Under the pieces are notes generated by a model, which ran no database searches, had not been told where the DNA came from, and worked only from the letters and a program-made list of their open reading frames with translations. This document shows, in pieces, positions 7,619-36,940 of a stretch of 64,000 nt of DNA. Made by a program: the position numbers and the translations under genes. The stretch is from Microbacterium hydrocarbonoxydans. GTDB taxonomy: Bacteria; Actinomycetota; Actinomycetes; Actinomycetales; Microbacteriaceae. Location of the stretch: contig NZ_LR882982.1 in assembly GCF_904831005.1 (NCBI RefSeq), forward strand, positions 1,488,001 through 1,552,000. The letters are read 5' to 3'. Every line of letters begins with the position of its first letter. Within the stretch, counting starts at the first letter, position 1.

Positions 7619-8179
7619 GTGCGTTCCCGACTCAATGGCCCCTTCGTCCTCCCCGTCCGTGACATCGTCCGCAAGCCGGGCGAGATGCGCGAGCATGAGT
7701 TCACGGTGACGCTGCCCGAGGCCTGGGGCGAGGGGATCGTGTCCTACGAAGCCGGGTCCGAGCTCGATCTCGATGTGCGGCTGGAGTCCGTGCACGAGGG
7801 CATTCTCGTGTCGGGAAATGTCGACGCCGAGTACTCCGGCGTCTGCGGAAGATGCCTGACCGACATCGCTCGGCCGGTCGAAGTCGAGTTCCAGGAGCTT
7901 TTCGCGTATCCTGGTGAGGAAGAAACTGACTTCGAGGTTCAAGACGACCACGTGGATCTTGAAACTCTTGTCAGGGATGCGGCCGTATTGTCGCTTCCAT
8001 TTCAGCCGGTGTGTCAGCCGGATTGCCTCGGGCTCGACCCGGTTACAGGCGAACGGCTGACCGAGAGCACCGGAACGGAGCAGGCCGCTCCCATCGATCC
8101 TCGGTGGAGTGCGCTGCAGCAGATCACAGACCAAGACGGCAAGGCAGAGAGCCGCGCCGCCGAGAAAGAAGAGAGCTAG
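7619..8179 (+). CDS. DUF177 (YceD) family protein
   Basis: 186-residue protein of the YceD/DUF177 family, which is found next to rpmF across bacteria and is linked to 23S rRNA/large-subunit maturation. Two cysteine pairs are visible, 'CGRCLTDIARPVEVEF' near residue 78 and 'CQPDCLGLDP' near residue 132, likely a metal or structural site. Start GTG at 7619 is set by the -10 box six bases upstream. Two bases separate its stop from rpmF, so the two are translationally close. Confidence 0.85.
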   Translation: MRSRLNGPFVLPVRDIVRKPGEMREHEFTVTLPEAWGEGIVSYEAGSELDLDVRLESVHEGILVSGNVDAEYSGVCGRCLTDIARPVEVEFQELFAYPGEEETDFEVQDDHVDLETLVRDAAVLSLPFQPVCQPDCLGLDPVTGERLTESTGTEQAAPIDPRWSALQQITDQDGKAESRAAEKEES

Positions 8180-8181
8180 TC

Positions 8182-8391
8182 ATGGCTGGTAACCCCCCGA
8201 AGCGCAAGGTCTCCCGTTCGAACACCCGCTCGCGCCGCGCGCAGTGGAAGGCCGAAGCCCCCGCGCTCGTCAAGACCATCGAGAACGGCAAGGTCGTCTA
8301 CAGCCGTCCGCACCAGGCGAAGGTCGTCACCGACTCGCAGGGCACCGAGCTGTTCCTCGAGTACAAGGGCCGCAAGGTCGCCGACGTCTGA
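8182..8391 (+). CDS. rpmF: 50S ribosomal protein L32
   Basis: 69-residue basic ribosomal protein; begins '[19 protein letters not shown]'. It has no Cys, so it is the zinc-free form of L32. The ATG lies two bases after the DUF177 stop; the ribosome-binding sequence AGAAAGAAGAGAG is inside the preceding gene. Followed 17 bases later by rnc. Confidence 0.95.
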
Positions 8392-8408
8392 GTCGCGACA
8401 TCACTGTT

Positions 8409-9101
8409 GTGACCGAGGCCGACGGATCGTCGAGACCTCTCGCCGAGAAGCTCCGCGTCGATATCGACGCGGAGCTTCTCGAGTTGGCACTCACGCATCG
8501 TTCCTACGCGTACGAGCACGGAGCGATCCCTCACAACGAGCGTCTCGAGTTCCTCGGCGACTCCGTCCTCGGGCAAGCGGTGACGGTCATGCTGTTCACC
8601 ACCAACCCTGACCTCGACGAGGGTTCGCTGGCCAAGCGGCGCGCGAGCGTCGTCTCCACGGTGGCACTCGCCGAGGTCGCTCGCGGCATCGGCCTCGGGC
8701 GTCACCTCCGACTCGGACGAGGCGAAGAGCAGACCGGCGGTCGCGACAAGGACTCGATCCTCGCCGACACGATGGAGGCGGTGATCGGCGCCACTTACCT
8801 CTCGGCGGGTCCCGAGGCCGCGACCGAGCTGGTGCTCCGTCTGACGGCGCCGCTGCTCGCAGATCCGGAGCGGTACGGAGCCGCCATGGATCCGAAGACG
8901 AGTCTGCAGGAGCTGGCCGCGAAGATGGGGGCCACGCCGCCGCAGTACTCGGTCGAAGCGAGCGGACCCGATCACGATCGCCGCTTCACGGCGACAGTGG
9001 TGGTCGGCGATCTCGCCATGACGGGCAAGGGCAGCAGCAAGAAGACCGCGGAGATGGCGGCCGCGCTCAGCGCGTGGCGCTATCTCGACGAACGTGCCTG
9101 A
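8409..9101 (+). CDS. rnc: ribonuclease III
   Basis: Double-strand-specific endoribonuclease for rRNA and mRNA processing; 230 residues. The RNase III signature '[13 protein letters not shown]' is at about residues 41-53, with Glu/Asp metal ligands ('DTMEAVIGA'), and a dsRNA-binding domain from about 155 ('[14 protein letters not shown]', '[12 protein letters not shown]'). GTG 8409 is used because it follows rpmF and gives the family N-terminus; the open frame continues back through rpmF without a likely start. Codons 12-25 contain a perfect 38-base palindrome (see findings). Overlaps mutM by 8 bases. Confidence 0.94.
8444..8481. repeat. perfect 38-base palindrome within rnc
   Basis: Nineteen consecutive complementary pairs around the centre 8462/8463, with no mismatch. 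The left arm runs 8444-8462 and the right arm 8463-8481. In RNA it would fold to a stem of about 17 base pairs with a small loop, beginning 36 bases after the rnc start codon. It encodes residues [14 protein letters not shown]. Confidence 0.97.
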
Positions 9102-9957
9102 GCTCCCAGAGGTCGAGGTCGTACGGGCAGGGCTGGCCCCGGCGACGACGGGGGCGGTCATCACGGCCGTCAGCGTGTTCGATGAACGTGCCCTCACTCG
9201 GCACGTCGCCGGAGCAGAGGATTTCGCCGCCCGACTCGAGGGCCGCACTTTCGTCGAGGCGATGCGTCGTGGCAAGTTCCTCTGGCTGCCGCTCGACGAT
9301 GAGAGCTCCGCTCTCATCGCGCACCTCGGGATGAGCGGGCAGATGCTGCTCCGTCGCCCGGATGCCGCGGCTGAGCGCCATGAGCGGATCCGGTTGAACA
9401 TCGAGCATCCGGTGCACGGGGAACTCGCCGTCGTGTTCGCCGATCAGCGGACATTCGGCTCGCTCGCCGTGGATCGCCTCATGATGGATGGTCCGTCGCG
9501 GATCCCGACGCAGGTCGCGCATATCGCGCGCGACCCGCTGGACCCGTTCTTCGACGACACCGCATTCCGGCGCTCGCTGCGCCGACGCAACAGCGCGATC
9601 AAGCGCGTGCTGCTCGACCAGCAGATCATCAGCGGCGTGGGCAACATCTACGCCGACGAGTCGCTCTGGGCCTCCCGGGTCCATCCCGAGACGCCGGCGA
9701 GTGCGCTCTCGACCCAGGCCGTCACGAGGCTGCTCACCGAGATCCGCTCTGTCCTCGCGAAGGCTCTCGCCGAAGGCGGCACCAGCTTCGACGCGCAGTA
9801 CGTGAACGTGAACGGTCAAGCCGGATATTTCGCGCACTCGCTCAATGCGTACGGGCGAGGCGGTCAACCCTGCCCTCGCTGCGGGACTCTGATCCGCCGC
9901 GAGGCGTTCATGAATCGCTCGAGCCACTTCTGCCCACGCTGTCAACGGCGTCGGTGA
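9094..9957 (+). CDS. mutM: formamidopyrimidine-DNA glycosylase (Fpg)
   Basis: Bifunctional glycosylase/AP lyase that removes 8-oxoguanine and formamidopyrimidines. 287 residues. N-terminal '[13 protein letters not shown]' supplies the catalytic Pro after Met removal and Glu; '[14 protein letters not shown]' is the helix-two-turn-helix; the C-terminal zinc finger reads '[10 protein letters not shown]' and 'CPRCQRRR'. GTG start overlaps the rnc end by 8 bases, a usual actinobacterial pairing. Convergent with the ABC permease gene seven bases downstream. Confidence 0.95.
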
Positions 9958-36885: not shown

Positions 36886-36899
36886 CGTTCGCGCACTCC

Positions 36900-36940
36900 A
36901 CAGCACCCCGGGACACGATGTCCCGGGGTGCTGTGTTTTC
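36900..36940 (+). terminator. strong terminator after rplS
   Basis: A 16-base perfect stem (36900-36915 with 36919-36934), three-base loop, followed by GTGTTTTC. Fifteen bases after the rplS stop. Confidence 0.9.

Follow-up and report, generated by a model that had tools for sequence, protein, structure and literature searches.

Organization of the rnc locus

The window, a 64,000-nucleotide stretch of the Microbacterium hydrocarbonoxydans genome, carries the gene order recG, coaD, yceD, rpmF, rnc, and mutM, the last four genes being matched by Pfam and the first two presumably corresponding to the two open reading frames (ORFs) upstream of yceD. The rnc gene, which encodes RNase III, starts with GTG at 8409-8411 and stops at 9099-9101. 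The genes and the elements inside rnc that are discussed here are as follows.

7619-8179, plus strand: yceD/DUF177-type gene, upstream of rnc in an apparent operon (ORF; Pfam PF02620)
8182-8391, plus strand: rpmF, ribosomal protein L32, upstream of rnc in the apparent operon (Pfam PF01783)
8409-9101, plus strand: rnc, RNase III with an RNase III domain and a double-stranded-RNA-binding domain (Pfam PF14622, PF00636, and PF00035)
8444-8481, plus strand: perfect 38-base palindrome, predicted as RNA to form a 17-bp stem with a 4-nucleotide AUAU loop (sequence and folding)
8448-8461, plus strand: 5' arm of the conserved core, AAGCTC NNN GTCGA (105 genus-level sequences)
8454-8456, plus strand: codon 16 (CGC, Arg), covarying with codon 21 (codon counts, covariation, and tree)
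8464-8477, plus strand: 3' arm of the conserved core, with the rare Leu codon CTT at 8475-8477 (genus comparison)
8469-8471, plus strand: codon 21 (GCG, Ala), covarying with codon 16 (codon counts, covariation, and tree)
9094-9957, plus strand: mutM, overlapping the 3' end of rnc (ORF; Pfam PF01149, PF06831, and PF06827)

The initial annotation had placed a perfect 38-base palindrome within the first codons of rnc, and a check of the sequence found it exact at 8444-8481, with 19 + 19 bases and no mismatch, 36 bases after the GTG. It spans +36 to +73 of the gene, that is, codons 13 to 24 plus one base on each side, and its center lies between codon 18 (GAT) and codon 19 (ATC). A search of both strands of the 3.72-Mb single-contig genome with a 181-base query, taken from around the palindrome, returned this single place and no second copy of the region. 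Both strands do encode the same 12-residue peptide, in register and visible as an antisense ORF, as had been pointed out, which is no more than a consequence of the sequence being palindromic.

Predicted fold and chance expectation

Folded as RNA, the palindrome gives a 17-bp stem closed by an AUAU loop; of the 19 uninterrupted pairs originally described for the RNA, the two central ones cannot form. The 171 bases around the palindrome fold at -84.2 kcal/mol, compared with a mean of -61.8 kcal/mol for shuffled sequences (z, -5.2), and none of 200 shuffles was as low. From base composition alone, 1.1e-4 palindromes of this kind are expected per 3.72 Mb. Under a codon null, in which the amino acids were held fixed and codons were sampled from the remainder of rnc, all 19 pairs arise with a probability of 1.9e-4 and the 14 inner pairs in this genome with one of 1.3e-3. 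The earlier view that a chance palindrome is very unlikely agrees with both the base-composition and the 19-pair estimates, and chance was rejected as its source.

Good RNase III substrates usually have about two helical turns. The stem has 17 bp in this genome, and the 13 RNA pairs that are conserved fall short of that usual length. Palindrome, folding, and covariation agree in predicting a double-stranded stem in the rnc message, as an RNase III site would have. No Rfam family was found above its gathering threshold at 8000-9300; the four matches with E values up to 5 were all to microRNA models, at 16.9 to 20.4 bits against gathering thresholds of at least 80. Elsewhere in the window, 36899-36935 holds another 17-bp stem, with a 3-nucleotide loop and followed by TTTT, that resembles an ordinary intrinsic terminator.

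Conservation of pairing within the genus

The rnc gene was found in 362 of 366 genomes of the genus, and the loci read were 30 from this search and 80 from titled records, with a few more added later. The genus set, consisting of the loci up to L112 plus L113, L125, and L182, comprises 106 sequences distinct over a 220-nucleotide stretch; one sequence containing an N was dropped, leaving 105 for the codon-null and pair-by-pair counts, the latter made on all 105 rows with no prefilter for at least 14 of 19 pairs. Included are three loci with vague titles (L067, L085, and L103) and L091, from a contig labelled Stenotrophomonas maltophilia that encodes a Microbacterium-like rnc and is probably mislabelled or part of a mixed assembly.

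The 14 inner pairs (8448-8461 with 8464-8477) had a mean of 13.62 Watson-Crick pairs among the 105 sequences, whereas the codon null for the same proteins had a mean of 10.15 and reached at most 10.59 in 2,000 null sets. All 14 pairs were present in 82 of the 105 (78%), versus 0.08% in the codon null, and at least 13 were present in 97. Pairing at genus level is hence kept beyond the constraints of protein and codon usage, and the check that the initial annotation had suggested, whether synonymous sites in relatives keep pairing, came out positive, with compensatory changes (see below). The counterexample that it had named, a relative with the same amino acids but no pairing, is absent from the genus: among 21 distinct sequences with the same 12 amino acids as the window, 19 keep all 14 inner pairs and 2 keep 13. 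Codon 23, which lies opposite codon 14, is the rare Leu codon CTT in 97 of 106 sequences, although CTT makes up 3.8% of the Leu codons elsewhere in rnc.

Counted singly, pairs 5 to 18 were each Watson-Crick in 95 to 105 of the 105 sequences. Outside them, pair 3 was kept in 93 sequences, pair 4 in 59, pair 2 in 22, and pair 1 in 19, and the central pair 19 was kept in 49. This pattern of kept and loose pairs is what would be expected if the hairpin ended in a loop and its base were soft. Because pairs 1, 2, 4, and 19 are poorly kept in the genus, the perfection over all 19 pairs is partly luck in this genome; "perfect 38-base" is exact for M. hydrocarbonoxydans, but the conserved part is smaller, with 13 RNA pairs and one kept outer pair.

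Compensatory change at codons 16 and 21

The variable middle of the stem pairs codon 16 with codon 21. Their joint forms among the 105 sequences were CGC-GCG (44), GGG-CCC (35), GGC-GCC (9), AGG-CCT (5), GGA-CCC (5), CGT-GCG (4), and three others found once each. The first four of these forms, 93 of the 105, are complementary at all three bases, and they exchange Arg/Gly and Ala/Pro jointly, so that two amino acids are altered (R/A, G/P, G/A, and R/P).

For covariation, we aligned 73 distinct sequences, 62 from the genus and 11 from other genera that had been picked for having a hairpin. Paired cells amounted to 88.3%, compared with 81.3% after shuffling; 9 pairs had changed on both sides, versus 5.1. 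Cells with double changes numbered 99 versus 44.8, and the covariation score was 0.197 versus 0.083, values reached in neither case by any of 500 shuffles. For one of the five measures, the count of further pair types, 23 of 500 shuffles came up to the observed value. When the partner was slid by 1 to 3 columns, pairing dropped to 36 to 45% and the score to 0.019 to 0.094, with a slide of +2 retaining 66 double-change cells. Departures within the 12 consensus pairs were G-U in 14 cases and A-C in 11, with no clear preference for the plus strand.

On a tree of 116 rows built from rnc DNA with the hairpin codons left out, in which 52 of the 113 inner branches were weak, parsimony required 17 changes of the joint codon-16/21 state, compared with 14 and 11 for the two codons alone. 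Eight or nine of the 17 alter both codons, and 3 to 7, depending on the reconstruction, lead from one perfect form to another; joint parsimony counts a two-codon change as one step, without intermediates. Taken with the codon null, these results give selection on RNA pairing in the genus as much support as can be had from sequence by itself. The base pairing also seems to choose amino acids in RNase III, which would make this a case of RNA structure dictating residues of a conserved enzyme.

Singularity of the site in the locus and genome

Perfect stems of at least 12 bp with a loop of 3 to 8 nucleotides occurred at the site in 88 of the 106 genus loci and nowhere else in rnc in this set. The 383 kb of genus loci contained five others, all of them near the 3' end of mutM, 1.45 to 1.57 kb downstream; when the threshold was lowered to 10 bp, three other perfect stems were found in or near rnc. 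A covariance model of the hairpin scored 76 bits at the site in the M. hydrocarbonoxydans genome, 50.8 bits on the opposite strand of the same place, and 26.7 bits at the next separate place. There were 24 matches with E values up to 10, among them no second strong copy; the matches elsewhere were weak, two of them lying below an E value of 1e-3. In the family, 128 of 150 genomes matched the model at an E value of 0.1, many of them away from rnc. Matches at 1e-9 or better came from 23 of the 150 genomes, in 14 genera, and 22 of these coincided with the rnc places given by the rnc searches; the remaining one is in G466. A match with an E value of 1.5e-8 at G371:C1:201700-201751, weaker on the other strand, lies away from the rnc of its genome.

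Interpretation of the hairpin

We consider that an RNA hairpin lies in the rnc frame, is kept by selection at the RNA level, and is most likely a target of RNase III for negative feedback, a reading to which we give a probability of roughly two in three. One alternative is that the hairpin is a by-product of the protein: the motif LGV..DPEL written in favored codons (CTC GGG GTC .. GAC CCC GAG) is inherently close to palindromic, and the codon null alone already yields 10.1 of 14 pairs. The observed mean of 13.6 lies well above the highest of 2,000 null means (10.6), the rare CTT is kept in 97 of 106 sequences, and the amino acids themselves change in pairing-preserving combinations (R/A, G/P, G/A, and R/P). 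On the codon null, the rare codon, and the paired changes, codon bias acting on a protein motif was rejected as the source, and such an origin is highly improbable. An intrinsic terminator or attenuator inside rnc would account for a strong, G+C-rich stem and is the least credible of the alternatives, since no T run follows the stem and the terminator scan did not report the site; the terminator was rejected for these reasons.

Scarcely more probable than a protein by-product is a feature of the DNA: the site might be bound by a dimeric protein, or template-switch mutation might have made the palindrome perfect with no selection involved. One template-switching event can yield paired changes. 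The symmetry of the DNA is perfect in this genome, the AAGCTC and GTCGA parts are nearly invariant, and G-U and A-C departures are about equally frequent. Against this, breaks are tolerated at the central pair and at most outer pairs while covariation persists in the middle, and a binding site needs no self-complementary variable middle; a palindromic operator would be recognized by fixed half-sites and not by covarying pairs, and the pairs here covary, though the parts of the core on either side of them hardly vary. Selection is suggested by the genus-wide rare codon and by the hairpins that other families encode at these codons with different sequences. The most serious competitor, still rather unlikely, is a selected RNA hairpin with another job, such as slowing early elongation, influencing how other RNases degrade the rpmF-rnc message, or binding another protein. 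The footprint of an initiating ribosome leaves +36 to +73 outside, and this segment lies in the path of the elongating ribosome. Structure in the coding sequence that slows elongation has been suggested for rnc of Staphylococcus aureus (PMC3386247), and evolutionary data cannot tell which factor reads a hairpin. What favors RNase III over another reader is that the element sits in the gene of a nuclease specific for double-stranded RNA, that its model score far exceeds that of any other place in the genome (76 versus 26.7 bits), and that cleavage of rnc by its own product is documented in a species of the same class.

Under the RNase III feedback reading, excess enzyme would cut the stem in those rnc messages that ribosomes have not unwound. 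Moving ribosomes would open the stem, so that idle or surplus messages would be cut first. The cut would separate the start codon from the remaining part of rnc and so inactivate it, and would leave the upstream yceD-rpmF part of the message whole. We infer that the hairpin forms in the cell, is cleaved, and exerts feedback; autoregulatory cutting at this place would fit the precedents of Streptomyces coelicolor and S. aureus.

Comparison with known RNase III autoregulation

In Escherichia coli, RNase III regulates itself through rncO, a hairpin in the message that encodes it, and autocleavage of the S. coelicolor absB (rnc) message was reportedly described by Xu et al. in 2008. The rncO element is a 5'-terminal stem-loop (PMC3386247), in contrast to the Microbacterium hairpin, which lies inside the coding sequence. 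A close parallel is S. coelicolor absB: it is the same gene, and it shares an operon with the genes for a hypothetical protein and L32 (PMC10126417, PMC2936110, and PMC5775266). There, RNase III cuts the polycistronic transcript that encodes it at two stem-loops, of which one lies within the rnc cistron (PMC10126417), and a mutant has raised levels of rnc mRNA (PMC2936110). The Streptomyces-like genomes compared here likewise show a hairpin at the same codons as Microbacterium. Unlike that gene arrangement, the stem sequences differ between the two, and the likeness is one of location in rnc and not of a mapped cut. When RNase J is absent from Streptomyces venezuelae, the 3' half of rnc builds up, which fits internal cleavage (PMC12096830). 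The S. aureus hairpin also lies within its own coding sequence and is cut by RNase III at U+296; that position is located in a long, irregular, bulged helix, whereas the Microbacterium stem is short and regular at +36 to +73 (for S. aureus, PMC3386247).

An autoregulatory RNase III site within the coding sequence is a mechanism already known from S. coelicolor and S. aureus, and the present hairpin is probably a new and unusually clean example of it. A literature search by title or abstract, with subscription papers mostly outside its scope, returned no description of the hairpin in Microbacterium or Actinobacteria. The comparison provides an evolutionary test of an RNase III feedback site at the level of base pairs that shows selection on RNA without experiment, and the site it points to is short and open to testing.

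Occurrence outside the genus

Folding was scanned in 45-base windows along rnc against synonymous shuffles within each gene, for a random 60 of the 106 genus loci, 68 other loci of the family (drawn from 196 genomes with a match), and 83 loci of other families of the class Actinomycetes (from 150 matching genomes outside the family). In all three sets the lowest mean z lay over the hairpin codons, at -3.2 in the genus (n = 60), -1.2 at the other family loci (n = 68), and -1.0 in other families (n = 83). The family minimum depends on 11 rows having a hairpin; without them, the family value was -0.73, and four other windows were lower, down to -0.92. The class value without the 8 Streptomyces-like rows was -0.77 and still the lowest, with -0.66 at codons 36 to 50. 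Averaged by family (33 families), the site had -0.85, the lowest of 98 windows; codons of about 34 to 56 had -0.77 by family mean, with an equally strong t value, and were more even across families. The single lowest window of the gene fell at the site, taken as the best of four windows among about 98, in 10 of the 83 class loci and 16 of the 68 family loci. The set from other classes, 41 loci from 119 genomes (10 of which belong to our class), was reduced to 40 by removal of L287, a locus of our own class, and did not support conservation across the phylum: the site had -0.44 in these 40 loci, and other windows had -0.55 and -0.45.

The spread over the class is patchy. Six of the 33 other families (f2, f15, f20, f25, f26, and f28, of which f2 and f15 are one genome each) have a strong hairpin, with z below about -1.9 in both windows; f6 and f18 are weaker, with z between -1.2 and -1.8; and 8 of the 33 have z above zero in both windows. 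Stem sequences at the same codons are spelled differently between families, and a few class loci have a strong hairpin displaced by 3 to 90 bases. Family f20, which we take from its rnc sequence to be Streptomyces-like, has a predicted 27-pair structure there in its 8 loci, with most pairs invariant and a variable loop. These comparisons show a strong hairpin in the genus and in certain other class lineages, whether inherited or arisen more than once. A bolder reading, which we hold tentatively and regard as somewhat less probable than its negation, is that of an old RNA element of Actinomycetes rnc whose fold is kept while its bases are rewritten; it would dictate the amino acids of the enzyme at codons 16 and 21 (the pairs Arg/Ala, Gly/Pro, and Gly/Ala), with target and N terminus dual-coded and its position shifting in some genera. 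If the hairpin corresponds to the S. coelicolor cut site, feedback at codons 13 to 24 would be ancient in several families of Actinomycetes.

Three further observations concern individual loci. The 5' region of the Streptomyces-like rnc (L191, L193, L194, L195, L201, L202, L204, and L207) is nearly invariant over 92 aligned bases, including its synonymous sites, with variation mostly in the loop and near the ends of the stretch. Strong perfect hairpins of 11 to 13 bp are shifted by 3 to 71 bases from the Microbacterium site in the class loci L181, L172, L169, L161, L226, and L189, as if the element moves. In the unnamed genus g49, L126 has a Microbacterium-type hairpin and L120 and L127 are without it, a difference that might reflect transfer of the 5' end of rnc or a loosely defined genus.
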